Assembly: GCF_016862935.1 (NCBI RefSeq)
Contig: NZ_BONX01000024.1
Span: 1-64,000 of the forward strand
DNA: 64,000 bases
Source: Plantactinospora mayteni
GTDB taxonomy: Bacteria > Actinomycetota > Actinomycetes > Mycobacteriales > Micromonosporaceae
Direction: 5' to 3'
Part shown: positions 15,215-32,674 of the stretch, one piece after another
Layout of the letters: each line of letters opens with the position of its first letter
Position numbering within the stretch: position 1 is the stretch's first letter
Position numbers and translations under genes: made by a program
The notes under the pieces: model-generated
What the model was told of the DNA's origin: nothing
The model's input: the letters and a program-made list of their open reading frames with translations, nothing else
Databases searched by the model: none

Positions 15215-16510
15215 ATGCGGTTCTGGACTCGAGGTCGGGGGACGTCACGAAGGGTGTTGCTCGGCCTCGCCGGGGTGCTCGTCGCGGCGAGCGTGACGGC
15301 ATGTATCCCCGGGGACGAGGGCAACTCATCTGGCGGCGACAGCAAGACTGTCGAATGGTGGACGATCAACCTCCAGAAGAGCTACAAGGTGTACATCGAC
15401 GGGCTGATCAGCCAGTACGAGAGCCAGAACCCAGCCATCAAGATCAAGTGGGTCGACGTCCCGGCGACGGACATGCCCCAGAAGTTCCTGGCCGCGGTGT
15501 CCACCGGTAACCCGCCTGACGCGGTCAACCTCACATCGGCGCAGCTCGGTGCGTTCCGGCCCGCGCTGTCCGACCTCGGCGAGTTCTTCACCGACGAGGA
15601 CCTCAAGGCCTACCAGCCCAGCTTGGTGGACGCGCTGGAGGCGAACGGCGTCCAGTCCGGCATCCCCTGGTACCACGGCGGCGGACTGATCAGCTACTAC
15701 CGCAAGTCGGTGGTTGACAAGGTCGGGTTCACGGCCGACAAGGCACCCAAGACGTTCGACGAGGCGCTCGAACTCGCCCAGCAGATCAAGGACAAGACCG
15801 GCGTCTACGGCATGAACCTGCCGTTCGTGTTCACCATCCCGAGCTATTACGGCATCGAGGTGCTCAGCGCCGACAAGACCAAGGCGGCGTTCAACACCCC
15901 GCAGACGGTCGCAGTGCTCGAGAAGCTGAAGAAGTACTACGACTCGGGGGCCCTCGCCCCTGGCACCACCGAGAAGAACTGGCGCGAGTACCCGCAGTCG
16001 GTCCAGAACAAGCAGATCGCGATGGCGTCCGCCGACTTCGCCACCAGCCTCGTGGCGGTGGAGGAGAACGCGCCGGAGGTCTACCAGGACCTCGTCGTCG
16101 CGCCGGGCGTCCGTTCGCCGGAAGGCAAGTACCTGCTCAACGGCATGCAGACCTTCGTGATCCCGGCCAAGTCCGACAACAAGGCAGCCGCGGCCGACTG
16201 GCTCAAGTTCGTCACCGACGCGAAGAACGAAGTGGAGTTCTGCAAGCTGGTCGCGATCTTCCCAGGGACCGTCGACTCCTTGAACGACCCGTTCTTCACC
16301 GGGTCGAAGAGCGGCGCCCCTACGGACGTGGCGCGCCGGCTGGTGGCCAGCTCGGTGTCGGACGTCATCGACGTCACCTACGGGACCGAGCACGACGTCG
16401 AGCTGCAGGAGGCGCTGGAGGAACAGATCCGTGCGGTGCTGAGCGGAGCCAAGACGGCAAAGCAGGCGCTGGACGCTGCCGAGGCGGCCTGGAACGAGAC
16501 GCTCGGATGA
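15215..16510 (+). CDS. ABC sugar-binding lipoprotein (family 1 solute-binding protein)
   Basis: A 431-residue extracellular binding protein. The N-terminus has RRVLLGLAGVLVAA and the lipobox VTAC (Cys at about 29), so it is lipid-anchored. The mature part follows the pattern of family 1 sugar-binding proteins: VEWWTINLQ, LISQYESQNPAIKIKWVDVP, AVSTGNPPDAVNL, GIPWYHGGGLISYYRKSVVD, and a C-terminal AVLSGAKTAKQALDAAEAAW. It would hand an oligo- or monosaccharide to the two permeases encoded 9 kb away. The ATG after CGGAGGTGG was chosen; it opens a five-gene chain with overlaps. Sugar specificity cannot be read. Confidence 0.92.
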   Translation: MRFWTRGRGTSRRVLLGLAGVLVAASVTACIPGDEGNSSGGDSKTVEWWTINLQKSYKVYIDGLISQYESQNPAIKIKWVDVPATDMPQKFLAAVSTGNPPDAVNLTSAQLGAFRPALSDLGEFFTDEDLKAYQPSLVDALEANGVQSGIPWYHGGGLISYYRKSVVDKVGFTADKAPKTFDEALELAQQIKDKTGVYGMNLPFVFTIPSYYGIEVLSADKTKAAFNTPQTVAVLEKLKKYYDSGALAPGTTEKNWREYPQSVQNKQIAMASADFATSLVAVEENAPEVYQDLVVAPGVRSPEGKYLLNGMQTFVIPAKSDNKAAAADWLKFVTDAKNEVEFCKLVAIFPGTVDSLNDPFFTGSKSGAPTDVARRLVASSVSDVIDVTYGTEHDVELQEALEEQIRAVLSGAKTAKQALDAAEAAWNETLG

Positions 16511-17544
16511 CGTCCGGAACGCTCCGCGTCGGAGTCGTCGGCGCAGGAATCATGGCCAAGGGCAACGCGACCATGCTCGCGTCGCACCCCGCGGTCCGCC
16601 TCGCGGGCGTCGCGAGCCGGACCGTCGACGGAGCCCGTCGGTTCGCCGAGGAGGCAGGTGGCCTGCCGGTCTACGACGACTACGAGCAGCTGATCGGCTC
16701 GGGAGACATCGACGCGGTGGTGGTGACCACCCCCGACGACGTTCATGCCGACATCACCGTCGCGGCGGCGAAGGCTGGCCTACACGTGCTGGTGGAGAAG
16801 CCGTTCACGACGACCGTCGAGGATGCCGACCGAGCCGTGGCGGCGATCCGCGCCGCGGGTGTGGTGGCCATGTGCTTGTTCAACCACCGCTGGGTTCCGG
16901 CGTACGCGCAGGCTAAGGAGCTGCGCGGCACCCTGGGTGACGCGGTGGTCGGTTACGCCCGCAAGAACGACACGATCGACGTTCCGACTTCGATGATCGG
17001 GCCCTGGTCCGCCAGGACCACCTGCGCCTGGTTCCTGTCCAGCCACGACATCGACCTGATGACCTGGCTCATCGGCGCGCCGGTCGTCGAGGTCTTCGCG
17101 ACCGCCCGGACCGGTTTCTTGCACAGCAAGGGGTTCGACACTCCGGATGCCGTGCAGATCCAGGCCCGCTATGCCGGCGGCGCGGTCGCGACCTTCGAGT
17201 CCGCCTGGATCTACCCGTCGACCTTCCCGACGGTGGTGGACAGCTACGTCACCCTGGCCTGCGAGCGCGGGGTGATGCAGGTCGACCGGCAGAAGGAGAA
17301 CGTGGTCGTCGCGACCGAGGAGGCGTACAGCTACCCGCGCAACATGCTCCAGCGGATCCAGCACGGCGTCCCGGCGGGTGCCTACCGGGATGCCGTCCAC
17401 CACTTCGTCGACTGCGCCCTGACCGGCACCGAGCCGCTGATCAGCATCGAGAGTTCGCGTGACGTCACCGCGGTGCTGGCCGCCGCGCACGAGTCCATCC
17501 GGACCCGTACGCCGCAGCCGGTCCGCGCGTTGGGTGCCGCCTGA
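16507..17544 (+). CDS. Gfo/Idh/MocA-family dehydrogenase (paralogue 1)
   Basis: A 345-residue NAD(P)-dependent oxidoreductase. The Rossmann part has VGVVGAGIMAKGN near residue 8, VVTTPDDVHAD, and the signature VLVEKPFTTT at about 95-104, including the catalytic-type Lys-Pro. The C-terminal part has GYARKNDTIDVPT and SSHDIDLMTWLIG, where the His is a usual catalytic residue. It resembles the second dehydrogenase of this cluster along its length (shared GYARK-DTIDVPT, TTCAWFLS-HDIDL, DTPDAV-IQAR, VDRQKE). It probably oxidises a sugar or uronic-acid intermediate. Overlaps the binding-protein gene by 4 nt (ATGA). Confidence 0.9.
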   Translation: MTSGTLRVGVVGAGIMAKGNATMLASHPAVRLAGVASRTVDGARRFAEEAGGLPVYDDYEQLIGSGDIDAVVVTTPDDVHADITVAAAKAGLHVLVEKPFTTTVEDADRAVAAIRAAGVVAMCLFNHRWVPAYAQAKELRGTLGDAVVGYARKNDTIDVPTSMIGPWSARTTCAWFLSSHDIDLMTWLIGAPVVEVFATARTGFLHSKGFDTPDAVQIQARYAGGAVATFESAWIYPSTFPTVVDSYVTLACERGVMQVDRQKENVVVATEEAYSYPRNMLQRIQHGVPAGAYRDAVHHFVDCALTGTEPLISIESSRDVTAVLAAAHESIRTRTPQPVRALGAA

Positions 17545-17545
17545 C

Positions 17546-18325
17546 ATGGACGGGCCGAGTACTGAACTGGGAAGACGAGTACGGCTGACCGACGTCTCCG
17601 TGGCGCTCGGTCGGCACCCGCGGGCAGCAGCCGGGTCGGTGGCCGTCAAGCAGCTACTGGCCATGATGGACGGTTTCGGGATCGCGACCGCCGTGGTGTC
17701 GAACCTGGCCTCGCGGTGGCACGCACCGGCAGCGGGGAACCGGGAACTGGTCGAGATGCTCGACGGCGTCGATCGGCTGCATGCCTGCTGGACCGTATTG
17801 CCGGACGTGTGCGGGGAGATCGGCGCCGCTGACGAGTTCGTCGAGCGGGCACGTACGGCCGGGGTGGTCGCGGTGCGGGCCTTTCCCGCCGACCACCGCT
17901 ACCGGCTTGACGGGCCGGACCTGACCGACCTGCACGGCGCGCTGGTGCGGGCGCGGCTGCCGCTGCTGGTGGAGGCGTCGCAGACCTCCTGGGAGGCGGT
18001 GGAGGCAGTGGCGCACCGGTTCGATGGACACACCCTGGTGATCGGTGATGTCGGTTACCGGTCGCTGCGCACGGTGGCCGGAGTGCTGTCGCGGTGCGAC
18101 AACGTCTACCTCGACATCAGCTACCTGGCGTCGCACTGCGGACTCGAGTGGCTGGTTGGCAGGTTCGGGGCCGGCCGCTTCCTGTTCGGCACGGGCTCGC
18201 CGCTGCGTGACCCGGCCGAGGTGGTGACCCGGCTGCTGTGGTCCGAACTCGACGACGACGCCGTGACGCAGATCGGCAGCGGGACCGCCGGCCGGCTGTT
18301 CCGGACGGAACGGAAACCCTCATGA
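17546..18325 (+). CDS. Amidohydrolase-like TIM-barrel protein lacking metal ligands
   Basis: A 259-residue protein with the overall layout of amidohydrolase-2 (PF04909-type) enzymes and similar to its downstream neighbour. However, the usual D-x-H-x-H-x-G is replaced by TDVSVALGRHP near residue 14, the Lys/His segment by RAFPADHRYRLD, and the final GSDFP by FGTGSPLRDP. The metal centre therefore looks lost, suggesting a pseudoenzyme, scaffold or a metal-independent lyase. ATG is 1 nt after the dehydrogenase stop; the stop overlaps the next gene by 4 nt. Strict co-translation with the intact homologue suggests a heteromer (inference). Confidence 0.8.
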   Translation: MDGPSTELGRRVRLTDVSVALGRHPRAAAGSVAVKQLLAMMDGFGIATAVVSNLASRWHAPAAGNRELVEMLDGVDRLHACWTVLPDVCGEIGAADEFVERARTAGVVAVRAFPADHRYRLDGPDLTDLHGALVRARLPLLVEASQTSWEAVEAVAHRFDGHTLVIGDVGYRSLRTVAGVLSRCDNVYLDISYLASHCGLEWLVGRFGAGRFLFGTGSPLRDPAEVVTRLLWSELDDDAVTQIGSGTAGRLFRTERKPS

Positions 18326-19158
18326 GCCTTGCGGCGGACCTCGAAACCGCGGTATTCGACCGGGTCCCGCAGCGTGCGGTGTCCATCGTCGACGCGCACG
18401 CCCACGTCGGGCCATACAGCGAGTTCTTCATACCGCAGTGCGAGCCGGCCGACCTGGTCCGCGTGATGGACCGCTGCGGTGTCGACCGGGCCGTACTCTC
18501 CAGCCATCTCGCCATCCAGCTCGACGCCCGCAGCGGCAACGAGGCCACCGCGGCGGCGGTGGCGGCACATCCCGACCAACTCGCGGGCTACCTCGTCGTC
18601 AACCCGTGGCAGAATCCGGCCGAGGAACTGGCCCGCTGGGGGGATGACCCACGGTTCGTGGGTGTCAAGCTGCATCCGGACCTGCACGCGTACCCGCTCA
18701 CCGGGTCGCGCTATGCCCCGGTGTGGGAGTTCGCGGAACGATCCGGTTGCCTGGTACTGACCCACACCTGGACCGGTTCCCCGTTCGACGATCCGAAGCA
18801 CCTCGGGATGGTGGCGGACCGGCATCCCGAGGTGGTGCTGCTGGCCGGGCACGCCGGGGCCCTACCCGAGGGGTTCGACCAGGCGATCGAGGTGGCAGCC
18901 GCACATCCGCGGGTGTTGCTGGAGATCTGTGGTTCGTACCACTCGGGGGCCACGATCACCCGGATGGTGCGCGCCCTCGGGGCATCGAAGGTGGTGTTCG
19001 GGTCGGACTTCCCGTTCATCGATCTTCGCTACTCGTTGGGCCGCCTGATCTTCGCCGATCTTGACACCGAGGACCGCATCGCCGTCCTCGGCGGCAATGC
19101 CTCGCGCCTCTTCGCCTGGCGAGGCCGTCCGCCCGCCGATGACCGCCCGACCGGATGA
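18322..19158 (+). CDS. Amidohydrolase family 2 (TIM-barrel) enzyme
   Basis: A 278-residue metal-dependent hydrolase or lactonase/decarboxylase-type enzyme. Metal and substrate motifs are intact: DAHAHVGPY near residue 26, GVKLHPDLHAY, LTHTWTGSP, LLAGHAGALPEG and FGSDFPFIDLRYS. Relatives open lactones, hydrolyse C-C or C-N bonds, or act as decarboxylases, so the reaction is not settled. It sits between its degenerate homologue (4-nt overlap) and the aminotransferase, fitting a short catabolic chain: oxidation, ring or amide opening, transamination. Confidence 0.88.
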   Translation: MSLAADLETAVFDRVPQRAVSIVDAHAHVGPYSEFFIPQCEPADLVRVMDRCGVDRAVLSSHLAIQLDARSGNEATAAAVAAHPDQLAGYLVVNPWQNPAEELARWGDDPRFVGVKLHPDLHAYPLTGSRYAPVWEFAERSGCLVLTHTWTGSPFDDPKHLGMVADRHPEVVLLAGHAGALPEGFDQAIEVAAAHPRVLLEICGSYHSGATITRMVRALGASKVVFGSDFPFIDLRYSLGRLIFADLDTEDRIAVLGGNASRLFAWRGRPPADDRPTG

Positions 19159-19170
19159 GGAGTCGTGCCG

Positions 19171-20472
19171 ATGGCAAGGAAGCTGACTACCAGTGCCGCG
19201 CTGTTCGAGTCCGCCAAGCAGGTCATCGCCGGCGGGGTGTCCAGCGATGCGCGGCGGTCCCCCGGCGTACCACTCTATGTCGACCACGCCTCGGGGTCCC
19301 GGCTGTGGGACGTTGATGGCAATAGCTACCTCGACTATGTCCTGGGGCAGGGACCTGCGGTGCTCGGGCACTGTGCGCCCGAGGTGGTGGCCGCGGTGGT
19401 GGATCAGGTTGGCCGCGGAATCTCCTACGCGGCGCAGCACCGCCTCGAGGTCGAGGTCGCCGAACGACTGTGTCGGATGGTCCCGTCGGCCGAGCTGGTG
19501 AGGTTCAACAGCGTCGGCTCCGAGGCGGTGCACGGCGCACTCCGGCTGGCCCGCGCCTTCACCGGACGTGCGAAGGTGCTGAAGTTCGAGGGGCACTACC
19601 ACGGCTGGTTCGACCCGGTGCTGTACAGCCTGCACCCTGACCTGGAGCAAGCCGGCCCGGTCGAGGAGCCGGTCCCCGTGCCGGGGAGCCCTGGCCAGCC
19701 GAGTTCGGCCGAGGGTGACGTGGTTGTGGTCACCTGGAACGACGTCGAAGCCGTGCGCGCGGCACTGGAGAAGCACCGGGGCGAGATCGCCGCGGTAATC
19801 ATGGAACCGATCCTCTGCAACACCGGTGCGATCGTGCCCTTGCCCGGCTATCTCGAAGGTGTGCGGGATCTCTGCGACGAGCACGGCGCATTACTCATTT
19901 TCGACGAGATCATCACCGGGTTCCGGGTGGCACCCGGTGGTGCCCAGGAACGCCTCGGCGCGCTGCCCGACCTCGCGACGTTCGGCAAGGCGATGGCCGG
20001 CGGTATGCAGGTCTCCGCGCTGGCCGGCCGCGCCTCCGTGATGGAGACCATCGCGTCCGGGCGGGTGGCACACGCCGGCACCTTCAACTCCCACCCGGTT
20101 GCGATGGCCGCGGCAAACGCGACCCTGACGGTGCTGGACGAGGAGCGCGACGACCGTTACGGCCTGCTGTACCGCCAGGGTGAACGCCTGATGGAAGGGC
20201 TGCGGGAGGCCGCCCGCCAGGCCGGCGTCCAGATGCTGGTGGACGGCCTCGGACCAGTCTTCCAAACCTACTTCACCAGCCAGGAGTCGGTGCGCGACTA
20301 CCGCGACTTCGCCCGTACCGACCGGCAGACGGCAGCCAGGTTCCACGCCGGGCTACAGGACCGGGGGATCAACATCGTCCCCCGCGGCCTCTGGCTGATG
20401 TCGACCGCACACACCGACGCCGACATCGAGGCGACGATCCAGGCCGCTACCGAAACACTGCACGCCATGTGA
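19171..20472 (+). CDS. Class III aminotransferase (HemL-like)
   Basis: A 433-residue PLP enzyme of the glutamate-1-semialdehyde aminomutase/aminotransferase type. Seen: GGVSSDARRSPGVPLYVDHA at the N-terminus, FNSVGSEAVHGALRLARAFT, HYHGWFDPV, LIFDEIITGFRVAPGGAQ with the PLP-ring Asp, and FGKAMAGGMQ with the Schiff-base Lys. It is too divergent and out of context for haem synthesis; more likely it adds or removes an amino group on a sugar or keto-acid intermediate of this cluster. The ATG 8 nt after AGGAG is preferred over a GTG 6 nt upstream. Confidence 0.9.
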   Translation: MARKLTTSAALFESAKQVIAGGVSSDARRSPGVPLYVDHASGSRLWDVDGNSYLDYVLGQGPAVLGHCAPEVVAAVVDQVGRGISYAAQHRLEVEVAERLCRMVPSAELVRFNSVGSEAVHGALRLARAFTGRAKVLKFEGHYHGWFDPVLYSLHPDLEQAGPVEEPVPVPGSPGQPSSAEGDVVVVTWNDVEAVRAALEKHRGEIAAVIMEPILCNTGAIVPLPGYLEGVRDLCDEHGALLIFDEIITGFRVAPGGAQERLGALPDLATFGKAMAGGMQVSALAGRASVMETIASGRVAHAGTFNSHPVAMAAANATLTVLDEERDDRYGLLYRQGERLMEGLREAARQAGVQMLVDGLGPVFQTYFTSQESVRDYRDFARTDRQTAARFHAGLQDRGINIVPRGLWLMSTAHTDADIEATIQAATETLHAM

Positions 20473-20513
20473 ATCCGGTACTTCCACGCCCCCCTGTAGC
20501 TGGAGGTCACACC

Positions 20514-22157
20514 ATGCCCGACTTCGTCCCCGCTCTCCGCTCAGCTGCCGCGTCGCGTCGCGACCTCCTGCGCCTGAGCGGCCTGGCGGCCGCTGGCACA
20601 CTGGTCGGTGTCGGCCTGGCGCCGCCAGCGGCCCGTGCCGACGGCGGCAGCGGTTACACCGCACGGCAGACGTTCGACGACTGGGACCGGCTGTTCCAGG
20701 CCGGGTCACCGGGCCAACCGGACCAGCCCAACGACAACACCAACGCCGACGGCAGGTCCGGCATGCTGGCGTGGAGCCAGTCGTATGTGCTGCTCGGCCT
20801 GGTCCGGATGTACGAGACGTACAAGGACACCTACTACCTGGACCGGCTGATCGAGAACATCGATCAGGTGTTGTCGGTCCGCGACAGCGAGCGCGGCGTC
20901 AGCGACTACCGAGGTCTGTCGTTGCCGGCCTGGCGGGCCGACTATCCCTACACGGTCGGGTTCACCACTCTCCGCGACAGCGAGGGACGGCCGACACTTG
21001 AGGTCCGTTCCGCGCTGACCTACGCCAACGACGTCACCGTGACGGTGTTGGCGGGGACCCGGCCGGACACCTTCACCCTGGAGGTCGTGAACGCCCAGTC
21101 CAACCGCACCGCGACCATCGCAGATCTGACCATGGACCCGACCAGCGGCGACTACGCGGTGCTCCGGTTCTACCAGTCCTCGATCGGCCCACTGATGTGG
21201 ACCGTACGCGATGTCCGGGAGTCCCCGACGGCCGCCGGGAACCCCGCGCCCGGATCGTTCCCGATGCTGTCAAAGCCGGTGATCTTCGCCGTGCACACCG
21301 GGATGATCACCTACCCCATCGCATCCTTCGTCCGGATCGTCCGGCAGTCACCGTCGCTGCTCAAGAACCGGCGCTACCGCGCGAAGGCCGCGGAGTACCT
21401 GGACGCGGTGCGGGCCGCGGTCGCGGTGCACGACTGGGAGTACCGGGAGAACGACAACGGCGAGGGCTACCTGATCTGGCCGAAGGGCCAGCCGCTGGCC
21501 TGGGACGGCTGCGAGCAGCCGATCAACCAGTCGTTGGCGCTCGGCCAGACGCTGGTCGAGTTGGCCATCACCACCGGTAACCCGGCGTATCGCAACAAGG
21601 TGAAGGCGATGGCGAAGATGTTCGCCCGACAGCTCACCGTCGACGCCGGCGGCGCGTACACGTGGCACTACTGGCCGACCGGTGGTCACGTCTACGAGGG
21701 ATTCACCAGGACCGGATCGCCGGACACCGACATCTCCCTCTTCACCCCCGAGCCGGTTGGCGGCCGAGGCTACAAGCAGTTCGAGGACATCAGTCACGGT
21801 GCGATCGGCGTCGAGTTCGCCGTCCGGGCATTCCGGGCCAAGCTCGGCTTCTCCGGGCTCGACATGACCCGGTTCGCCCGCACGTTCACGCAGAACGTGG
21901 CGACGACCGACGACACGGGTCAGCCGGCCACCCGTACCACCGTGGCCGGCACCGGACTGGGCGCCGCCTCGGTGGCCCAGCAGGTGCCGCGCTGGATGCA
22001 GGCGACGCCCTGGGACGCGGGGGTGCACGCTCACTCGCTGGCGTTGTACAACCGGTACCAGCCGACACCTGAGCAGGACGGCGCACAGGCGATCGGCTTC
22101 GGGTGGCTGCTCGCGAACGTCGCCTACCTGAACTGGGGCGCCAAGTACAGCGCCTGA
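20514..22157 (+). CDS. Tat-exported protein with alpha-toroid-like fold, probable glycan-active
   Basis: A 547-residue exported protein. The signal peptide has the Tat motif SRRDLLRLSGLAAAG and a cleavage region ARADGG near residue 43. The mature part is rich in Trp/Tyr and in paired helices (AWSQSYVLLGLVRMYETYKD, NQSLALGQTLVELAITTG, AKMFARQLTVDAGGAYTWHYW), which suggests an alpha/alpha toroid as in polysaccharide lyases, uronate epimerases or unsaturated glucuronyl hydrolases; between these lies a beta-rich insert. I cannot assign a family. Its place at the end of the uptake/catabolism chain suggests extracellular processing of the cluster's glycan substrate. TGGAGG precedes the ATG. Confidence 0.75.
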   Translation: MPDFVPALRSAAASRRDLLRLSGLAAAGTLVGVGLAPPAARADGGSGYTARQTFDDWDRLFQAGSPGQPDQPNDNTNADGRSGMLAWSQSYVLLGLVRMYETYKDTYYLDRLIENIDQVLSVRDSERGVSDYRGLSLPAWRADYPYTVGFTTLRDSEGRPTLEVRSALTYANDVTVTVLAGTRPDTFTLEVVNAQSNRTATIADLTMDPTSGDYAVLRFYQSSIGPLMWTVRDVRESPTAAGNPAPGSFPMLSKPVIFAVHTGMITYPIASFVRIVRQSPSLLKNRRYRAKAAEYLDAVRAAVAVHDWEYRENDNGEGYLIWPKGQPLAWDGCEQPINQSLALGQTLVELAITTGNPAYRNKVKAMAKMFARQLTVDAGGAYTWHYWPTGGHVYEGFTRTGSPDTDISLFTPEPVGGRGYKQFEDISHGAIGVEFAVRAFRAKLGFSGLDMTRFARTFTQNVATTDDTGQPATRTTVAGTGLGAASVAQQVPRWMQATPWDAGVHAHSLALYNRYQPTPEQDGAQAIGFGWLLANVAYLNWGAKYSA

Positions 22158-22167
22158 CCGCGACGGC

Positions 22168-22225: not shown

Positions 22226-23284
22226 TCAGCGGGCCGGCGCCACGTCGTCGAGCCGGACCGAGCCGCCGGTGTCGATCGCGCGGTGCGCGGCTGCCAGGAC
22301 GGCGGTCACCTGCCGGGAACTCTCGATGCTGACCAGTGGTTCCCGGCCGGTCCGGACGCACTCGACGAAGTGCTCCACCGCGAACGGGTACGAGCCGCGC
22401 AGCACGCCGTGGATGTCTCCCTCGATCATCGTGCGCGGGTAGCTGAAGCTGTCGGGGGTTGCCGCGAGAATCCCCTCCTTCTGCCGGTCGACGTGGATGG
22501 TGCCACCCTCGGCCACGATGCTGAGATAGCTGTCGATCATGGTGGGGAACGTCTCGGGATTGACCCAGCCGGACTCGAACGTGGCCACCGCGCCGCTGTC
22601 GAAGCGGGCCTGGATGACCACCGCGTCCGGGGTGTCGATGCCCCGCCCGGCGAGCAGGCCCCGCCGGGCCACCGCGCTGACCTGCTCCACCTCGCTGTCG
22701 AACAGCCAGCTCACCAGGTCGATGTCGTGTCCGGAGAGGAACCAGGCGCAGGTGGTCCTTTCGGCCCACTTCAGCATCCGGGTGGGTACGTCGATGGTGT
22801 CGTGCTTACGGGCGTACCCGCAGACCGCAGGGCCCATATCGGCGAGCAACTGCTTGGCTTTCGCATTCGGGGGCAGCCACCGGTGGTTGTACAGGCACAT
22901 CGCCCGGACTCCCGCGGCTCGCACGGCGGCCACCATCCGGTCCGCGTCGGCGACCGATGTCGCCAGCGGCTTCTCGATCAGGACGTGCAGCCCTGCCGCT
23001 GCCGCCGCCACGGTCGGCTCCGCATGCAGGTGGTCGGGCGTCATCACCGCGATGGCGTCACAGCGACCGGACGCGATCATCTCGTCGACGTCCTCGTACC
23101 CGGTCACCGGCTCACCACTCAGCTTCTCCAGCTCGATGGCCAACCGGGTGGCGCTGTCGCGGGTACGGCTGCTGACGGCGGTCACGACGGAGTTCGGATA
23201 CTGAGCCAGCACCTTGCCGGTCAGGGCCGCCATCGCACCGGTTCCCACCAGCCCGAACCGGACCGGCCGGGTGGTCGTGGCCAT
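22226..23284 (-). CDS. Gfo/Idh/MocA-family dehydrogenase (paralogue 2)
   Basis: A 352-residue oxidoreductase. Rossmann motif FGLVGTGAMAALTG near residue 10, VMTPDHLHAEP, signature VLIEKPLATSV, and catalytic-type LSGHDIDLVSWLF. It is a clear paralogue of the plus-strand dehydrogenase of this cluster, with shared blocks GYARK-DTIDVPT and TTCAWFLS-HDIDL, so the two may act on successive or epimeric intermediates, or one may reverse the other. ATG follows GAGGAG; a GTG 12 nt upstream is an alternative. It is transcribed with the fumarylacetoacetate-hydrolase-family gene upstream of it (34 bp gap). Confidence 0.9.
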   Translation of the reverse strand: MATTTRPVRFGLVGTGAMAALTGKVLAQYPNSVVTAVSSRTRDSATRLAIELEKLSGEPVTGYEDVDEMIASGRCDAIAVMTPDHLHAEPTVAAAAAGLHVLIEKPLATSVADADRMVAAVRAAGVRAMCLYNHRWLPPNAKAKQLLADMGPAVCGYARKHDTIDVPTRMLKWAERTTCAWFLSGHDIDLVSWLFDSEVEQVSAVARRGLLAGRGIDTPDAVVIQARFDSGAVATFESGWVNPETFPTMIDSYLSIVAEGGTIHVDRQKEGILAATPDSFSYPRTMIEGDIHGVLRGSYPFAVEHFVECVRTGREPLVSIESSRQVTAVLAAAHRAIDTGGSVRLDDVAPAR

Positions 23285-23318
23285 GATGCTCCTCACTGCC
23301 GTGTTAGCCGGTGCCGGG

Positions 23319-24185
23319 TCAGCTGAACCGGACGTCGTTCTGTAGCGTGCCGAGCCGGTCGATCGTCGCGCGCATCACGTCACCGTCGACGAGAGGTGCC
23401 AGGCCCGCGGTCGTGCCGGTGGCGATCACGTCGCCGGGCAGCAGCGTCATGCCGTTGGAGAGATCGGCGATCAGTCGCGGCAGCCCGTACACCATTTGGG
23501 CGGTGTTCGCCCGCTGCCGGACCGTGCCGCCGACCTCGAGCCGCATCTCCAGCGCCGACGGGTCGCCCACCTCGTCCGGAGTGACCAGGTACGGCCCCAG
23601 CGGAGCGAAGGTGTCGAACCCTTTGAACTGATCCCACGGCACGTTACGGGCGATGTTCACCAACTGCAGGTCCCGCGCGGTCATGTCGTTGATCACGGTG
23701 TAGCCGGCGACGGCCTCGGTCCACCGCTCGGCGGGCAGATCGCGCGTTGTGGTGCCGATGACCACCGCCAGCTCGATTTCGTGCTCGAGGTGCCGGGTCC
23801 GCCGTGGCGCGACCACCGTCGTGCGATGGCCGGTCAGCGCGGACGGGGGCTTGAAGAACAGCACCGGCTCGGGGGGCACGTCGAGGTTGCTCTCCTCGGC
23901 ATGGTCCCGATAGTTCAGCGCCAGGCAGCAGATCTTCGTACAGGTCGCCACCGGCGGCTCGAAAAGCACCTCAGCAACGCTCAGCAGATCCCCGGCCGAG
24001 GTCGAGGCGGCGAGCGCGGCGATGTCCTCGGCGAGCGACTCGCGGCCGGTTCGCGCCAGCAGGGCGACCGGATCGGCGTTGCCGCTGTCGTCCAGCGACG
24101 CGAGCGGAAGCAGCCGGTCGTCGGGCGTCCGATACACCAGCTCCACGTCGCGGTCGGCTGCCCTGCGGACACGGGCAAACTGCAC
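23319..24185 (-). CDS. Fumarylacetoacetate hydrolase (FAH) family enzyme
   Basis: A 288-residue member of the FAH superfamily. The metal-binding and catalytic pattern is clear: LNYRDHAEES, EPVLFFKPPSAL, HEIELAVVIG (two acidic metal ligands), GYTVINDMTARDLQ, GFDTFAPLGPYLVT and LLPGDVIATGTTAG near the end. Members hydrolyse acylpyruvates, decarboxylate or dehydrate keto-acid sugars (for example keto-deoxy-sugar-acid catabolism). Here it probably handles a 2-keto-3-deoxy-type intermediate. The GTG start lies 6 nt after AGGAGG. It is divergent from the permease genes across a 160-bp control region. Confidence 0.9.
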   Translation of the reverse strand: MQFARVRRAADRDVELVYRTPDDRLLPLASLDDSGNADPVALLARTGRESLAEDIAALAASTSAGDLLSVAEVLFEPPVATCTKICCLALNYRDHAEESNLDVPPEPVLFFKPPSALTGHRTTVVAPRRTRHLEHEIELAVVIGTTTRDLPAERWTEAVAGYTVINDMTARDLQLVNIARNVPWDQFKGFDTFAPLGPYLVTPDEVGDPSALEMRLEVGGTVRQRANTAQMVYGLPRLIADLSNGMTLLPGDVIATGTTAGLAPLVDGDVMRATIDRLGTLQNDVRFS

Positions 24186-24286: not shown

Positions 24287-24347
24287 GTCCATCATGGGTG
24301 GTTGTGGGATCGAGCAGGTCGAGTGGGGACACGGAGAGGCAGACCGG

Positions 24348-25223
24348 ATGACAGTGGGCAGGACGTCAGGTGGTAGCCGCTGGGTTCCGTATGCCTTCCT
24401 GCTGCCCGGGATCGCGCTGTTTTCGGTCTTCTTCGCCTGGCCCGCGATGATGGCGATCCGGTTGTCGTTCTACGAGTACAACGTCGTGTCGCCTGCCCGG
24501 TTCGTCGGCCTTGACAACTTCCGTCGACTGCTCACCGACGACCGGTTCCACCTCGCGCTGGGAAACTCCGCGCTGTACCTGGTCGGGATGATTCCGTTCG
24601 CCGTGATCATCCCGATCTGGCTCGCGGTGCTGGTCAACCAGAAGGTCCGCGGCATCCGGGCATTCCGCGCGATGTACTACCTGCCGGCGATCACGTCCAT
24701 GGTTGCCGTCGGCGTGGCCTGGCGCTACCTCTTCCACCAGCAAGGCGTGCTGAACTGGGCGCTGATCGAGACGGGGATCATCGACAAGCCGATCCAGTAC
24801 CTGCTCAGCGACGACTGGGCACTGCCCGCACTGGTGCTGGTCGAAGGCTGGAAGATGGTCGGCTTCTTCATGATGATCTACCTGGCCGGGTTGCAGTCCA
24901 TCCCGGCCGAGATCTTCGAGGCGGCCAAGGTCGACGGCGCCAACTCGGCACGGCGGATGTGGCACGTGACCATCCCGCTACTGCTGCCGTACACGACAGT
25001 GACGCTCACGCTGGGGATGCTCGACGCGTTACGGGTCTTCGAGTCCGTCTACGTGATGACCAGGGGCGGGCCACAGGACTCGACCATAAGTCTCGGCTAC
25101 CTCGCCTGGTCGACCGCCTTCGAGCGGTACCAACTCGGCTACGCCAGCGCGATCGGGCTGGTGATGCTGGTGCTGATGGTCGGGCTCGCCGTTCTCAATC
25201 AGCGCATCACGCGAGAGAGGTGA
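24348..25223 (+). CDS. ABC sugar permease, MalF/UgpA type
   Basis: A 291-residue inner-membrane subunit with six predicted spans, starting SRWVPYAFLLPGIALFSVFF. The coupling (EAA) loop is EIFEAAKVDGANSARRMWHV followed by TIPLLLP, where the ATPase docks. Works with the MalG-type permease 5 bp downstream and presumably with the lipoprotein at the other end of the cluster. No ATPase gene is present in this region, so a shared sugar-ABC ATPase (MsiK-like) must be supplied in trans. ATG after GGAGAGG was chosen; a longer in-frame start adds 18 non-hydrophobic residues. Confidence 0.92.
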   Translation: MTVGRTSGGSRWVPYAFLLPGIALFSVFFAWPAMMAIRLSFYEYNVVSPARFVGLDNFRRLLTDDRFHLALGNSALYLVGMIPFAVIIPIWLAVLVNQKVRGIRAFRAMYYLPAITSMVAVGVAWRYLFHQQGVLNWALIETGIIDKPIQYLLSDDWALPALVLVEGWKMVGFFMMIYLAGLQSIPAEIFEAAKVDGANSARRMWHVTIPLLLPYTTVTLTLGMLDALRVFESVYVMTRGGPQDSTISLGYLAWSTAFERYQLGYASAIGLVMLVLMVGLAVLNQRITRER

Positions 25224-25228
25224 CGCCG

Positions 25229-26059
25229 GTGTACCGCATCAGGCGTACATTACGCAGCCTACTGACGTATGTCCTGCTGTGTGCGATCGCGGTACTGTTC
25301 ATGGCGCCGTTCGCACTGCTGCTGTCCACCGCCCTGAAGTCCTCCGGCCAGGATGTGTTCGGTTTCCCGCCGCAGTGGATCCCACGGCCACCGGTGCTCA
25401 CCTGGTTCGGGGAGGCCTGGTCGACGATTCCGTTCGCCCGCTACCTGCTGAATTCGGTGATCTACGAGATCGGAATCATCCCCGCCTACCTGGTCGTCTC
25501 CGCGCTCACCGCGTACCCGCTCGCGGTTATGCGCTTCCGCGGCCGGACGGTGCTGTTCTACCTGTTCCTGGCGACGATGTTCATGCCCGCCGAGGTGTTG
25601 CTGATACCGCGCTTCATGGTGGTCTCACAGCTCGGACTCAACGACACCTACGTCGGCGTGATGCTCCCGGCGATCCTCTCGGCGATCGGGATCTTCCTGC
25701 TCCGCCAGACGTTCGCCGCGGTACCGAGGGAACTGCTGGACGCTGCGGCGATTGACGGCTGCGGGCACCTGCGGGTGCTGTGGCACGTAATGGTCCCGGT
25801 GGCGCGGCCGACCTTCGCGGTGCTGTCGATCCTCGGCTTCATCTCGGTCTGGAACAGCTTCATCTGGCCGCTGGTCGTGCTCAACGACACGGACAAGTAT
25901 CCCATCGTGCTGGGCCTGGCGTTCCTGTCCGGGATCGCGGGCAACGACGTCCGGGGCCTGGCCGCCGGAACCATCATCTCGATCATCCCGATCACGGTTT
26001 TCTTCCTGCTGATGCAGCGACACATATTGGATGGAATGAGCGGTGCGGTCAAAGGGTAG
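25229..26059 (+). CDS. ABC sugar permease, MalG/UgpE type
   Basis: A 276-residue membrane subunit with six spans. Typical N-terminus LRSLLTYVLLCAIAVLFMAP, a periplasmic loop ending FARYLLNSVIYEIG, and the EAA loop ELLDAAAIDGCGHLRVLWHV followed by MVPVARP. GTG start with GAGAGAGG upstream, 5 bp behind the first permease gene. Forms the heterodimeric channel with it. Confidence 0.92.
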   Translation: MYRIRRTLRSLLTYVLLCAIAVLFMAPFALLLSTALKSSGQDVFGFPPQWIPRPPVLTWFGEAWSTIPFARYLLNSVIYEIGIIPAYLVVSALTAYPLAVMRFRGRTVLFYLFLATMFMPAEVLLIPRFMVVSQLGLNDTYVGVMLPAILSAIGIFLLRQTFAAVPRELLDAAAIDGCGHLRVLWHVMVPVARPTFAVLSILGFISVWNSFIWPLVVLNDTDKYPIVLGLAFLSGIAGNDVRGLAAGTIISIIPITVFFLLMQRHILDGMSGAVKG

Positions 26060-26117
26060 GGTCCAGGTGCGACGGTGCCGGATCGTCGGGGCGGCCTGGG
26101 AAAGGGCGGGTTGACAG

Positions 26118-27434
26118 GTGCAGTGGCATCGACGGTCGGTCAATGAGTTGATCACCATCGGCGTGGTCGGCCCGCGTGACCAAGTCCAACGGATCCTGCT
26201 CATGCCGAGACGACCGGACTCCCAGAATTGGCGGCTGGTCGGTGCCGCACACGCCAGGGAACGCCAGACATACGAGCAGGTCCTGAAGATCGCCGACAGC
26301 GTCGACGCGATCCTGTTCACCGGGCCGCTGCAGTACGACCTGGCCCGGGAATCCGGCGAGCTGACGGTGCCCGCGACGTACGTCCCGGTAAGCGGCGCCT
26401 CGCTGTACTCCGGCATCATCCGGGGCCTGATGGCCGGCACCCTCGATCCGTCCCGGGTCAGTATCGACTCGATCGGCGCGGACGAGGTCGAGGCGGCGTA
26501 CGCGGACATCAAAGTGAGCAATCAGCTCGTGCACACCATCGAGTACCTCGGGGCGGAGTCGGTGGAGAAATTCATCGACTTCCATCGCGGCCTGTACGAG
26601 AGTGGAGCCACCTCGGCCGCGCTGACCACCGTCAAGTCGGTGGCGCAGCGGCTGGTGGCTGCCAAGGTGCCGGTGTTCCGGTTGGTGCCGCCGTCGAACA
26701 GCATCCGGGACGCCCTGAACACCGCGGCCCTGCTGGGGGCCGGCAGCATCCTCGGGGACTCCCAGATCGTGATGGTGGTAGTGCAGGTGTCGCCGGCGTT
26801 CCGTCCGCTCGGCAACGGACCGCAGAACTACCGCCAGATGGAACTCATCCTGTCGTTGCACCGGTTGCTGCTCTCCGAGGTTGCCGACCTCGGGGTGACC
26901 TTGCTGCAACGCGACGCGGACACGTTTGTCATCACCGCGACCCGCGGCTCGCTGGCTCAGCTGATCAGTCGCCTCCGGGCCGACACCTTCGTCGATCGGA
27001 TGCGGGCCGAGACCGGGATGGTCGTCGACATTGGGGTCGGCATTGGCGAGACGCCGCAAGCCGCCGAGGAACACGCGTACACCGCGCTGGAGCGTTCCCG
27101 AGAAGGTGACGCGGCGAAGGTGTACCTGGTGCGGCCGGATGGCAGCAACGTGGCGCTGTCGGGTCCCTCCGACGGGCAGGTGTCGAGCGAACCGCCGTTG
27201 GGGTCGTCGAAAGCCGAGGAGACGCTGCGCCGGATCATCGAGGTGCTGCAACCACAGCCCGGTGAGCCGATAGTGGTGGATGCTGAGGCAGTGGCGGAGG
27301 GCCTCACGGTCACGCCGCGAAGCGCGCGCCGGGTGCTGGCATCGCTCGTCGACGCCGGCCTGGCCTGGCAGATGCCCGCCGTGCAGTCATCGCGGAGCGG
27401 CCGACCGCGACAACAGTTCCGACTGATCGTCTAA
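26118..27434 (+). CDS. Transcriptional regulator with cyclase/GGDEF-like middle and C-terminal winged helix
   Basis: A 438-residue protein of unusual build. The N-terminal half (about 8-200) is an alpha/beta sensor domain (ITIGVVGPRDQVQRIL, SVDAILFTGPLQYDLARES, PATYVPVSGASLYSGIIRGL). The middle (about 210-340) has the beta-alpha pattern of a degenerate GGDEF/GTP-cyclohydrolase-III-like domain (LLQRDADTFVITATRGS, GMVVDIGVGIGETPQAAEEH, LERSREGDAAKVYLV) without an active GGDEF. The end (about 365-438) is a winged HTH (AEGLTVTPRSARRVLASLVD, RSGRPRQQFRLIV). It probably senses a cluster metabolite. It lies directly behind the permeases; GTG start with only a weak site. Confidence 0.75.
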   Translation: MQWHRRSVNELITIGVVGPRDQVQRILLMPRRPDSQNWRLVGAAHARERQTYEQVLKIADSVDAILFTGPLQYDLARESGELTVPATYVPVSGASLYSGIIRGLMAGTLDPSRVSIDSIGADEVEAAYADIKVSNQLVHTIEYLGAESVEKFIDFHRGLYESGATSAALTTVKSVAQRLVAAKVPVFRLVPPSNSIRDALNTAALLGAGSILGDSQIVMVVVQVSPAFRPLGNGPQNYRQMELILSLHRLLLSEVADLGVTLLQRDADTFVITATRGSLAQLISRLRADTFVDRMRAETGMVVDIGVGIGETPQAAEEHAYTALERSREGDAAKVYLVRPDGSNVALSGPSDGQVSSEPPLGSSKAEETLRRIIEVLQPQPGEPIVVDAEAVAEGLTVTPRSARRVLASLVDAGLAWQMPAVQSSRSGRPRQQFRLIV

Positions 27435-27624
27435 CATGCCCACCATCGCCGCCCCGCGCCCGGCTCCGGTCGGCGTCGACCGTAGCCGCGCACGGACAGC
27501 GGGCCAATCGCCCGGAGCCCGTCGTGACTGGGCGAGCCGCTGCCTGCCGGGCCAGCTCTTCGAGGGCCCGGCGTCGGGTGGATTGTCTTGTCAGCGTCCG
27601 ACAGACCCACTCGGGAGAGCGCGC

Positions 27625-28410
27625 GTGATCGATCCGTATCAACCCCACGGGACACGCTTTTCCGCAGAGCGCGTCTCGATCCACGCCAGCCGCCATGACG
27701 CCGGCGCTGCGGCCGCCGCCGACGCGGCCGCCGCCATCAGGAGCGCAATCGAGCAGCGCGGTGAGGCCCGCGTCATCCTGGCCGCGGCCCCCTCGCAGGA
27801 GCCGTTGCTGGACCACCTCGTGCGGGAGGCCGGCGTGCCCTGGGAGCGGGTGCACCTGTTTCATATGGACGAGTACGTCGGCTTGCCATCCGGCGCGCCC
27901 CAGGCCTTCGCTGGTTGGCTCACTCGCAGATTGGCCGCGCTGCCAATCCTGCGCTTTGAGGCTCTGCGACCCGACCCTGACCCAGCGGCCGAGCTACGCC
28001 GGTACGCGGAGCTGCTCGCAGCGGGCCCGATCGACCTCGCGTGCCTCGGGGTTGGGGTGAACGGCCACCTGGCGTTCAACGAGCCTGGCGAATGCCGCCT
28101 GGACGACCCGGCGACCCTTCGGCTCACCGACCTGCACCTCGCCTCAAGGCAGCAGCAGGTGGACGAGAGGCTCTTCGCGACACTCGCCGACGTGCCACGA
28201 CAAGCCATCACGGTTACCGTACCGGGCCTGCTGAACAGCACACGGGCGGTCCTCTGCGCGTTCGGCAACGCGAAGGCAGCCGGCGTGCGCCGGATGCTGA
28301 CGGGGCCCGTCGACGAGAGCTGCCCAGCATCGGCGATCCGCACACATCCAGACGCCCAGGTACACCTCGACGCCGCGGCAGCGGCACTGCTCTCGGAGAC
28401 GGTCGGATGA
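27625..28410 (+). CDS. NagB-like glucosamine-6-phosphate deaminase/isomerase
   Basis: A 261-residue enzyme of the NagB/RpiA fold. Hallmarks: VHLFHMDEYVGL with the catalytic Asp near residue 77, and LGVGVNGHLAFNEPGEC with the catalytic His. The C-terminal part has VTVPGLLNSTRAVLCAFG. Such enzymes convert glucosamine-6-P to fructose-6-P and ammonia, but a related amino sugar phosphate is equally possible. GTG start after GGGAGAGC was chosen. The stop overlaps the SIS gene by 4 nt. Confidence 0.88.
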   Translation: MIDPYQPHGTRFSAERVSIHASRHDAGAAAAADAAAAIRSAIEQRGEARVILAAAPSQEPLLDHLVREAGVPWERVHLFHMDEYVGLPSGAPQAFAGWLTRRLAALPILRFEALRPDPDPAAELRRYAELLAAGPIDLACLGVGVNGHLAFNEPGECRLDDPATLRLTDLHLASRQQQVDERLFATLADVPRQAITVTVPGLLNSTRAVLCAFGNAKAAGVRRMLTGPVDESCPASAIRTHPDAQVHLDAAAAALLSETVG

Positions 28411-29198
28411 CGGGCACCCCCGATGAAGCCGCCGCGGCGGTGGTGGGCGGCGTGATGTCTGGCTACCTCGATGCCGTGATCGGGCATATCCAGGCCATCG
28501 CGGCCACCGAGACCGCGGCGGTAGAACAGGCGGCGGCGCTCGTGGCCGATCACGTCCTCGCCGACCGGTTGGTGTACGTGTACGGACCGGGAGGACATTC
28601 GAACCTCGCAGCCCAGGAGGTGTTCTTCCGTGCCGGAGGGCTGGTGAACGTCAGCGCGATTCTCGACGAGGGGACGCTGCTGTCGAACGGGGCGATGCGC
28701 TCCATGGCGATGGAGCGGACACCGGGCTACGGGCGGTTGGTGATGGAGGACAACGGGCTCGTACCCGGGGACCTCCTGGTGCTGGTCAACGCGTACGGCA
28801 TCAATGCCGCCCTGATCGACGCGGCCCTCTGGGCAAGAGAGCACGGCGTGAAGGTGATCGGAGTGTCCTCCCGAGTGCATGCCGACTCGACGGCGCTGGA
28901 CCATCCAGCACGGCATCCATCGCAGCGGAACCTGCACGACATCGTGGACGTGCACATCGACACCAAGGTGCCAATCGGGGATGCCGTCCTCCAGCCGCCG
29001 GGCATCAGCGGGCGGGTGGGTGCCGTATCTACCTTCGCCAACGCCTACGCGCTGAACTGTCTGATGGTCTCAGCATCGGCTCTGGTCGCCGCGCGCGGTG
29101 TTGAACCGACGATCTGGCGCAGTGGCAACGCGCCGGGTGGCGACGAGCAGCACAGCGGCTTCCTCCACCGGTACCGCAGGCGGGTCCGTTGGTTGTAG
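28407..29198 (+). CDS. SIS-domain sugar isomerase-like protein
   Basis: A 263-residue protein with one sugar-isomerase domain: VYVYGPGGHSNLAAQEVFFR (phosphosugar-binding loop), DEGTLLSNGAMRSMAMERTP, PGDLLVLVNAYGINAALIDA, KVIGVSSRVHAD. It matches the 'sugar isomerase domain' group often placed next to amino-sugar catabolic genes. Likely isomerises or binds an amino sugar phosphate. Coupled by ATGA overlap to the NagB-like gene. Confidence 0.85.
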   Translation: MTGTPDEAAAAVVGGVMSGYLDAVIGHIQAIAATETAAVEQAAALVADHVLADRLVYVYGPGGHSNLAAQEVFFRAGGLVNVSAILDEGTLLSNGAMRSMAMERTPGYGRLVMEDNGLVPGDLLVLVNAYGINAALIDAALWAREHGVKVIGVSSRVHADSTALDHPARHPSQRNLHDIVDVHIDTKVPIGDAVLQPPGISGRVGAVSTFANAYALNCLMVSASALVAARGVEPTIWRSGNAPGGDEQHSGFLHRYRRRVRWL

Positions 29199-29485
29199 GA
29201 CGCGCGCGTTTGGGGCAACCCCAGGCCGGCCTGGCTCGCGCAAACATCACCTCTGGCCCCGAAATCGCCAGGCCCATGGGCTGTACCTACCTGCGGCTGT
29301 CCATCGGGACCGACCTGCACGGCGAGCACCACGGCGGGGTCACCCCGGCCCTGTCGAACAGGGTCACGTGCGTGCGGGAGAAGAAGCAGCCCTTCATCAC
29401 ACTGCCGAGCTCGTGCGACGTTGTCGCCGTTCTGGACGCCCTACACCGTTCCCTGGGCTCGGGGCCGCCGGAGACCCTACGATGA
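29189..29485 (+). pseudogene. C-terminal remnant, possibly of a Gfo/Idh/MocA dehydrogenase
   Basis: Codons 30-98 are strongly coding-like (third-position GC) and end in LPSSCDVVAVLDALHRSLGSG and PPETLR, a pattern resembling the last helix of Gfo/Idh/MocA proteins. Its stop overlaps the ATG of nagA by 4 nt, as a real operon gene would. No Rossmann half or ribosome-binding site is present. Most economical reading: an operon gene lost its 5' part by internal deletion; alternatively a genuine 98-residue protein starting TTG at 29189. Confidence 0.5.
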
Positions 29486-30624
29486 TCATCCTTACCGGTC
29501 GGTCACCCGCTGGCGAGCCGGTACGGGTCACCGTCCGCGACGGGGCGATCAGCGCGGTCGAGCGACAGGAGCACGATGATCCCGCCTGGCTCCTGCCAGG
29601 CCTGGTCGATTTGCAGGTGAACGGCTACCAGGGATATGACCTGAATTCCGACGAGGTCGACGCCGACGTGGTGACCAACCTGGTTGAAGTCAAGCGTCAG
29701 CATGGCGTGACCGCATTCTGCCCGACTCTGATCACCGCCGAGGAGGGTAAGTTGGTCTCCGCGCTCGCGGTGATCCGTAAGGTCCGGGCGGCCGATCCGG
29801 ATATGGCGACGGCGATGCCCTGCGTTCACGTCGAGGGCCCGCACATCTCCCCCGCGCCGGGCGCTCGGGGAGCGCATGACCCCGACCTGATGCGGCCGCC
29901 ATCGACTGCTGAGTTCGATCGCTGGCAGGCCGCGTCGGGTGGAATCGTGGGAATCGTGACCATCGCCCCCGAACTGCCAGGAGCGGTCCGCTACACCCGG
30001 GAACTGGCGGGGCGTGGCGTCATCGTGTCCCTCGGGCACTGTGATGCCACAGCAGAGCAGATCTCAGCGGCAGTCGACGCCGGGGCCCGCCTCTCGACGC
30101 ACCTCGGCAACGGCGCCGCGCAGCTGCTGCCGCGGCACCCCAACCATCTGTGGGCGCAGTTGGCGGATGACCGCCTTAGCGCCTCCTTCATCGCCGATGG
30201 TCATCATCTTCCGGCTGACACCTTCACCGTAATGACCCGGGCGAAGGGGGTGGAACACTCCATCCTGGTTAGCGACTCCGCCGCCCTGGCGGGGCTTCCG
30301 CCAGGGGACTATGAGACACCAGTGGGTGGACGAGTCACCGTGGACGAGGTCGGCCGGCTGGTGCTGACGGGATCCAATCTGCTCGCGGGCTCGGGCCGCA
30401 GCCTGCTGCACTGCCTCGCCTGGGTGGTCCGCCACACCGAGGTGGGTCTGGCGCCGGCGGTGCAGATGGCTTCGTCCAACCCGGCGCGGCTTCTCGGGCT
30501 CGCTGGCCGGCACGGGCTCGTGCCCGGGGCGCCGGCGGACCTCGTGGTGGCGCATGAAGATTCCGCGGGTGCCATTACGGTGCAGCGAACCCTCGTGGCA
30601 GGGCGAACGGTCTACCAATCGTGA
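29482..30624 (+). CDS. nagA: NagA-like N-acetylglucosamine-6-phosphate deacetylase
   Basis: A 380-residue amidohydrolase. N-terminal LPGLVDLQVNGYQGYDLN and the metal/substrate motifs HVEGPHISPAPGARGAH, VSLGHCDATAEQI, STHLGNGAAQLLPRHPN, IADGHHLPADT and LVSDSAALAGLP. The HLGNG block differs from the HLFNAM of E. coli NagA, marking a distinct subgroup, so the substrate may be another N-acyl amino sugar phosphate. ATG overlaps the preceding stop. It ends the plus-strand catabolic chain; the next gene converges. Confidence 0.88.
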   Translation: MIILTGRSPAGEPVRVTVRDGAISAVERQEHDDPAWLLPGLVDLQVNGYQGYDLNSDEVDADVVTNLVEVKRQHGVTAFCPTLITAEEGKLVSALAVIRKVRAADPDMATAMPCVHVEGPHISPAPGARGAHDPDLMRPPSTAEFDRWQAASGGIVGIVTIAPELPGAVRYTRELAGRGVIVSLGHCDATAEQISAAVDAGARLSTHLGNGAAQLLPRHPNHLWAQLADDRLSASFIADGHHLPADTFTVMTRAKGVEHSILVSDSAALAGLPPGDYETPVGGRVTVDEVGRLVLTGSNLLAGSGRSLLHCLAWVVRHTEVGLAPAVQMASSNPARLLGLAGRHGLVPGAPADLVVAHEDSAGAITVQRTLVAGRTVYQS

Positions 30625-32665: not shown

Positions 32666-32674
32666 GATCGTTGG

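Follow-up and report, generated by a model that had tools for sequence, protein, structure and literature searches.

A gene cluster of Plantactinospora mayteni, most likely for the import and degradation of a polymer of uronic acid and N-acetylated amino sugar

Several described systems share part of their logic with the gene cluster treated here, which occupies positions 15215-30624 of a 64,000-nucleotide stretch of Plantactinospora mayteni DNA (contig NZ_BONX01000024.1; the whole stretch is called the window). The heparinase III-type systems (HepC of Bacteroides/Pedobacter, PL12) resemble it in the combination of uronate and hexosamine and in the heparinase II/III domains of the lyase encoded by its relatives. 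However, the present cluster is of an actinobacterial type with an ATP-binding cassette (ABC) importer, no sulfatase was seen among the proteins searched, and Gfo/Idh dehydrogenases, an amidohydrolase pair, a glutamate-1-semialdehyde (GSA)-type aminotransferase and a fumarylacetoacetate-hydrolase (FAH)-family enzyme are added, the window itself being without lyase. Oxidative pathways of the L-rhamnonate/L-fuconate type likewise employ a dehydrogenase and an FAH-family enzyme, and the best NCBIfam match of the FAH protein is 2,4-didehydro-3-deoxy-L-rhamnonate hydrolase (191.6 bits, cut-off 500). They differ in that no sugar-acid dehydratase was found among the window proteins searched and in that an aminotransferase and a lyase are added. 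In comparison to nagBA of E. coli, the aligned NagA and NagB residues are kept, but the NagB loop reads AAAPSQ instead of GGT and no kinase lies adjacent in the window. NagS (SCO4393) is the N-acetylglucosamine-6-phosphate (GlcNAc-6P) dehydratase of Streptomyces (PMC12680351); the related SIS-domain protein of the window is linked to NagB and NagA instead of dmdR1.

We read the region, with a probability of about 0.52, as one catabolic cluster for a glycan with uronic acid and N-acetylhexosamine. Its combination of enzymes was not matched to any described pathway, and most likely the cluster imports and degrades a polymer of uronate and N-acetylated amino sugar. No description of this pathway or gene set was recognised from titles and abstract openings of the open-access full-text literature, subscription papers being mostly outside that search. 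The reading starts from direct observations, namely the gene families, their linkage, a repeated association with amino-sugar genes, the conservation of a ligand-free amidohydrolase and the absence of the relatives' lyase from the genome.

All 14 genes that an earlier note on this DNA had listed are present as intact open frames with zero internal stops, and their families are as stated there. The first forward stretch (15215-22157), in which adjacent genes overlap or lie at most 6 bases apart, encodes a sugar ABC-transporter substrate-binding lipoprotein (SBP, 15215..16510; Pfam SBP_bac), the dehydrogenase GfoA (16507..17544; GFO_IDH_MocA), the amidohydrolases AH_deg (17546..18325), a paralogue without metal ligands, and AH_int (18322..19158), with intact ligands (both Amidohydro_2, by Pfam and alignment), the class III aminotransferase AT3 (19165..20472; Aminotran_3) and TatX (20469..22157), a protein of 562 amino acids with a twin-arginine-like start (by eye) and weak GH88/GH105-like signals. 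It is followed on the reverse strand (22226-24185) by a second Gfo/Idh/MocA dehydrogenase, GfoB (22226..23296), and by FAH (23319..24185; FAA_hydrolase), whose start was placed by homology in a frame open to 24332. The third stretch (24348-30624), again on the forward strand, comprises the ABC permeases permA (24348..25223; start placed by homology, frame open from 24294) and permB (25220..26059), both BPD_transp_1, a cluster-linked regulator of 438 amino acids (Reg, 26118..27434), a NagB-like deaminase/isomerase (27625..28410; Glucosamine_iso, frame open from 27436), the SIS-domain protein (28407..29198; SIS_2, PRK02947 subfamily) and a NagA-like amidohydrolase (29482..30624; Amidohydro_1). 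The earlier description as two convergent arms was loosely worded, since the actual layout is three stretches with a divergent FAH/permA gap (162 bases with the starts placed by homology). TatX and GfoB converge on a perfect inverted repeat of 14 bases with a loop of 7 (22168-22202), a possible terminator without T run.

Relatives were collected by scanning GTDB genome contigs with an AH_int alignment; this yielded 413 stretches and 168 relatives, and 80 loci were kept. Among these, 23 (L029-L050, L052) show 42-68% identity and the other 57 at most 32%; gene annotation was limited to these 23, which come from Streptosporangium, Phytoactinopolyspora, Jiangella, Nonomuraea, Microlunatus, Ruania, Kribbella and Fodinicola. 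The presence matrix covers 26 loci, i.e. the 23, two further loci (G080 and G153) and the window; L022, which has a contig as long as that of L052 and was regarded as belonging to one genome with it, and L023 were left out, and the thresholds were chosen after the identities had been seen. AH_int is found in all 25 relatives, a count that is not independent because it was the bait for 23 of them. AH_deg is likewise present in 25, AT3 and Reg in 24 each, a heparinase-type lyase (Hep) in 23, GfoA (57-78% identity in the best segment), SBP, permA and permB in 23 each, TatX in 21 and FAH in 20. NagB and SIS occur in six loci each and NagA in four, at least one of the three being present in seven. 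Some contigs of the relatives are short, so that the absences are upper bounds, and the 11 Kribbella loci, all beside a clpX-like gene, do not count as independent. The PhoD, ClpX and trigger-factor genes flanking the Kribbella loci, the latter two presumed to be such from a reading of their sequences, were considered as cluster parts and judged to be chromosomal neighbours shared by descent.

A compact core cluster thus recurs in most of the 25 loci, in seven named actinobacterial genera as well as in G080 and G153, usually in the order FAH, TatX, permB and permA on one strand and, divergently, SBP, GfoA, Hep, AH_deg, AH_int, Reg and AT3 on the other. FAH takes other cluster positions in Streptosporangium, Phytoactinopolyspora and Jiangella, the Ruania locus is cut by the end of its contig, and in Nonomuraea, the eighth genus, the amidohydrolase pair alone was detected at the thresholds used. 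The recurrence of the same genes in seven other named genera exceeds a chance neighbourhood, and the unit of the relatives consists of the core, the permeases and the regulator, NagB-SIS-NagA alone being optional. The view of the earlier note that the genes form a single sugar-catabolic system is borne out in this respect, and its refuting case, arms that lie apart in relatives, does not apply to the larger part of the genes: one locus of ~16 kb holds all the listed genes except the second dehydrogenase in Kribbella capetownensis, K. pittospori and K. steppae. For NagB-SIS-NagA the outcome is mixed, as this set also occurs apart from the core in two loci (L164 and L165). Transporter, regulator and glycan-active enzyme, by which polysaccharide-utilisation clusters are recognised, are conserved together in the relatives; the window's own glycan-active part is TatX only, for which the evidence is weak. 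Among closer relatives, TatX was found in 4 of 150 genomes of the family and Reg in 6 of 249 genomes of the order, the window's own being counted in both cases. The rest of the core lies near TatX in G080, whose locus also carries an enolase-superfamily gene, and near Reg in G153 and G180. G113 and G149 have TatX homologues (36-40% identical), and G354, G360 and G369 have Reg homologues (30-33%), that lie outside any such core.

The lyase of the relatives is located inside the core between GfoA and AH_deg, exactly where these two genes directly abut in the window. One Hep protein (L020) matches the Pfam heparinase II/III N and C domains at 1.4e-20 and 1.8e-18, and a profile of 18 Hep proteins matched heparinase III chains of the PDB with E values of 1e-19 to 4e-16 and alginate lyases with 3e-6 to 6e-6. 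Two Hep proteins stay far below the heparin-sulfate lyase equivalog (59.2 and 41.8 bits versus 700) and reach 27-59 bits against equivalog cut-offs of 600-700. Given such a lyase in the relatives, the substrate is likely to contain a uronic acid, and the GH88-like TatX points the same way. An N-acetylhexosamine is suggested by NagA, NagB and SIS, by a kinase-like gene described below and by a GH20 gene that follows AT3 in G153 and G180 (same genus handle); the amino-sugar-containing substrate proposed in the earlier note is accordingly graded likely. That a lyase was overlooked in the window or elsewhere in its genome is ruled out by the searches given below. The window's copy of the cluster lost its lyase or never had one, and probably relies on TatX or on fragments released by others.

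We infer the substrate, the locations of the enzymes, every reaction and their order as follows. TatX would act extracellularly on the polymer or on fragments of it, and the resulting oligosaccharides would be imported by SBP, permA and permB. In the relatives, a cytosolic heparinase-type lyase may then cut them into an unsaturated uronate and an amino sugar. The uronate branch would comprise GfoA, the amidohydrolase pair, AT3 and FAH. Most economically, the C3 hydroxyl of a 4-deoxy-5-keto uronate would be oxidised to yield a 2,4-dioxo acid, which FAH could hydrolyse to pyruvate and a three-carbon semialdehyde acid; an oxidation to a 2,4-dioxo acid followed by cleavage to pyruvate is the order of steps expected from the chemistry of these families. 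The amidohydrolase pair and AT3 would strip acyl and amino groups. NagA, NagB and the SIS protein are the candidates for the amino-sugar branch, and Reg presumably controls the gene set.

Several observations weigh against this reading. No Hep-like lyase was found in the window (best E 0.056) or in its whole genome, where the same query matched six of six control genomes. A further search, of 396 genomes of the phylum, gave 0 matches, but with 2 candidates scored per genome shown and no positive control this result carries no weight. In 18 of the 25 relatives none of the three amino-sugar genes was found, contig ends truncating some of these loci. The equivalog cut-offs for NagA, NagB, FAH-type enzymes and IolG were not reached by any of the proteins. 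TatX has no confident fold, and a few of its members weakly match GH127, LANC-like or GH76 families as well. An operator common to both arms of the window was sought and not found, the dyad of the relatives scoring low and the window's own dyad being single. Finally, AT3 is superfluous for an ordinary glycosaminoglycan, hence the uronate may be amino-substituted or the reading incomplete.

AT3 is the least explained of the enzymes and the ground for keeping an amino-uronate in view. It belongs to the GSA aminomutase type by Pfam and NCBIfam, reaching the subfamily PRK00062 (425.1 versus 398) and staying below the hemL equivalog TIGR00713 (389.9, cut-off 527.3). A possible but doubtful alternative is therefore that a 2-acetamido-2-deoxy-hexuronic acid, of the kind contained in certain teichuronic acids or capsules, makes up the uronic acid of the polymer. 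Elimination and ring opening would yield an alpha-amino aldehyde resembling glutamate 1-semialdehyde, the amidohydrolase pair would deacetylate, AT3 would handle the amine, and GfoA together with FAH would cut the chain to pyruvate. This accounts for a GSA-type enzyme that matches the lyase in constancy (24 and 23 of 25) and for the paired amidohydrolases alongside a lyase of uronate type. However, no lyase of this type was tied here to an amino-uronate polymer, the nine listed solved relatives of AH_int include six decarboxylases and no named deacetylase, and the proposed reactions are paper chemistry.

The amidohydrolase pair is a peculiarity of its own. AH_int shows all features of a metal-dependent amidohydrolase-2 (HxH, a further His and the Asp of the last strand), with H27, H29, H149, H178 and D230, which we take to be the metal ligands, kept in 26 of 26 aligned sequences including the window. 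In AH_deg the positions H29, H149, H178 and D230 are kept in none of 25 sequences and H27 in four (window included); the protein is nevertheless conserved beside AH_int, and the 24 orthologues aligned share the lack of metal ligands with the window. In three loci (L037, L038 and L039, from Ruania and two Microlunatus) both are encoded in one open frame with a single stop codon, the Ruania linker being rich in Pro and Ala. The earlier note had called AH_deg degenerate; a decaying copy is rejected on account of these alignments, and a conserved ligand-free partner is the better reading. Distant pairs, with AH_int 41-44% identical, exist at other loci of these genomes, several together with import genes, and one such locus (L147) also holds AT3, a Gfo protein and FAH. 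Distant amidohydrolase pairs or SIS loci were also seen near DegT-type aminotransferase genes (L151, L155, L158, L166, L167), several with import genes; the DegT assignment is a Pfam match for L158 and was made by eye for the others.

Of the two dehydrogenases, which share 56% identity, GfoA belongs to the core and gave no PDB match at 1e-20 in a single-sequence search. GfoB was not seen within the core of the relatives, although a frame resembling it was noted ~3 kb outside the cluster of Phytoactinopolyspora alkaliphila. For GfoB as an in-cluster duplicate of GfoA the tree gives a long branch with weak support.

The amino-sugar genes NagB, SIS and NagA are an accessory of the core. NagA is a near miss of the nagA equivalog (213.5 versus 225.65) and keeps the aligned residues E131, H195, H216, D273, R227 and H251; NagB stays below its equivalog (98.5 versus 236.9) and keeps D72, H143 and K208, the roles of these residues in both proteins being assumed by us. 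Six core-linked NagB copies, the window included, have AAAPSQ where the E. coli enzyme has its GGT phosphate loop, and Q instead of R172. Loss of the phosphate residues as a hallmark of the cluster is weakened, since four of five NagB homologues elsewhere in the relatives' genomes (L168-L172) carry the same APSQ loop. At E 1e-4 the genome holds no NagB besides that of the window.

The nearest solved relative of the SIS protein is NagS, for which the following has been reported (PMC12680351): H53, R64, E94 and D179 are essential for activity, S54, S119 and S121 contact the phosphate, S91 is catalytic, the mutants S54A, S119A and S121A are still active, and homologues of 26-36% identity have no or negligible activity. 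The window protein keeps H53, R64, E94, D179 and N228 as well as S54, and has M, N and Y in place of S91, S119 and S121. N and Y at the latter two positions occur in seven of seven aligned SIS sequences including the window, and N and F in the distant L165 copy. Given the activity of the S119A and S121A mutants, the serine changes alone are no proof of a phosphate-free substrate. SIS proteins of this PRK02947-type subfamily also lie beside a ceramidase-like hydrolase away from the core (L164, L166, L167, L023).

A sugar kinase was not found among the 20 window proteins searched, in agreement with the earlier note, which had placed phosphorylation elsewhere. This is one option. The cluster of Streptosporangium minutum itself holds, between Reg and FAH, another PRK02947-type SIS and a BadF-family protein whose sole NCBIfam match is N-acetylglucosamine kinase (58.1 bits versus a cut-off of 370); S. 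canum has the same layout, its kinase-like gene being assigned by map only.

That a general N-acetylglucosamine operon, NagB-SIS-NagA, lies beside the core by chance as a separate system is unlikely in our view, although more than one observation speaks for it. Besides the many core loci that lack the three genes, the set stands alone in L164, with an SSF transporter, NagA, a ceramidase-like gene, SIS, a LacI-like regulator (by eye), a GlcNAc-2-epimerase-like gene and NagB, and in L165, where an importer and a GH3-like gene (by eye) accompany NagB-SIS-NagA. The nearest copies to the window's SIS and NagA are those of the stand-alone L164 locus, with which they group in the trees, and the dyad at the SBP promoter occurs once in the window. 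On the other hand, a single clade of the core-joined copies is rejected (AU p 0.006 for SIS, 0.002 for NagA and 0.003 for NagB, in trees of 12, 7 and 9 rows with groups set by locus and pairwise identities already seen), and the association was hence repeated or long kept. NagB-SIS-NagA either joined the core at least twice or joined once and left some lines; the trees also allow the latter course, which leaves somewhat more room for a chance neighbourhood. Furthermore, in K. capetownensis, K. pittospori and K. steppae the genes for FAH, TatX and the permeases share a single run with NagA, SIS and NagB (the K. steppae NagB came to light by tblastn and is absent from the map of open reading frames), and in the first two species the latter three continue into the others on one strand; in Ruania NagB and SIS directly follow AT3. 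Repeated or long kept, the association points, though not conclusively, to a shared substrate.

A more specific proposal, in our estimation rather improbable as a whole, would join these peculiarities in one undescribed route: a lyase-derived 2-acetamido-uronate would be treated as an analogue of glutamate 1-semialdehyde, the obligate amidohydrolase pair would deacylate it, the GSA-type aminotransferase would move or remove the amine and the acylpyruvate hydrolase would release pyruvate, and NagB-SIS-NagA would work kinase-free on an amino sugar that is unphosphorylated or carboxylated. That the cluster instead serves to make or modify an amino sugar for a natural product or a surface glycan, as the common pairing of a Gfo/Idh dehydrogenase with a pyridoxal-phosphate-dependent aminotransferase in amino-sugar biosynthesis might suggest, is very improbable in view of the importer with its binding protein, the lyase of the relatives, the NagA/NagB-type enzymes and the failure to find a glycosyltransferase or nucleotide-sugar enzyme among the 20 window proteins searched.

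For TatX and Reg no Pfam family was found at E 0.001. Nevertheless, 13 of 16 TatX homologues show a weak GH88 match (E up to 5, best 1.2e-4), that of the window scoring 14.3 bits versus a gathering threshold of 26.6, and a TatX profile gave weak PDB matches, the first two being 4mu9 (glycoside hydrolase) and 4wu0 (YteR-like). A weak GTP-cyclohydrolase-III-like part is seen in 4 of 12 Reg members, and single members give hints of a C-terminal helix-turn-helix motif. A 24-base dyad, CTCATTACGG-N4-CCGTTATGAG, in the SBP promoter (15167..15190) is a candidate operator; even when 3 mismatches are tolerated it occurs once in the window, and 0 of 100 shuffles gave one. It resembles the conserved dyad of the relatives in position and differs from it in sequence. 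The latter, TGTCYGWAA-N6-TTWMRGACA, was found in the permA-SBP promoters of five Kribbella, two Microlunatus and G153 (16 relative loci scanned), each of these eight promoters holding a weaker second site; six of the eight loci supplied seed sites of the matrix, hence only the remaining loci and the second sites are independent. With this matrix the window reaches a maximum of 8.2, compared to 27.8-34.3 for seven of the eight seed sites and 15.1 for the eighth; the Streptosporangium seed site is weak.

The cluster lies within strain-specific DNA beside a tRNA-Lys gene. To the right of ~32.6 kb the DNA is conserved in six of six other genomes of the genus (82-93%), and in the four genomes with flank sequence the homology ends at 32574, 32529, 32570 and 32668, adjoining the 3' end of tRNA-Lys(CTT) (32672-32747). 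The best match of the 10.2-13.9 kb stretch in each of the six genomes is merely an element of 325-386 bases (11716-12104), of which each has an 84-86% copy and this genome one more. Upstream of SBP a chimeric-looking frame contains an IS630-type transposase-related fragment (14138-14560, reverse strand, 52.9 bits versus a cut-off of 100). A horizontal arrival is likely. Two other genomes of the genus, G032 and G058, carry about 66-120 bases of this tRNA-end sequence once more, 37-38 kb from the first copy, which looks like the att repeats of a tRNA integration hotspot; no second copy of the tRNA-end sequence was found in the window.

If the reading as one catabolic cluster is true, these loci would represent an actinobacterial gene cluster that crosses families and serves a glycan of uronate and amino sugar. 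The joint occurrence of an amidohydrolase and its metal-less sister in every core locus examined would be a testable oddity, and the tie of a GSA-type aminotransferase to a polysaccharide lyase a second one. Moreover, a NagS-like SIS subfamily, akin to proteins reported to be inactive on GlcNAc-6P, would gain a definite catabolic context.

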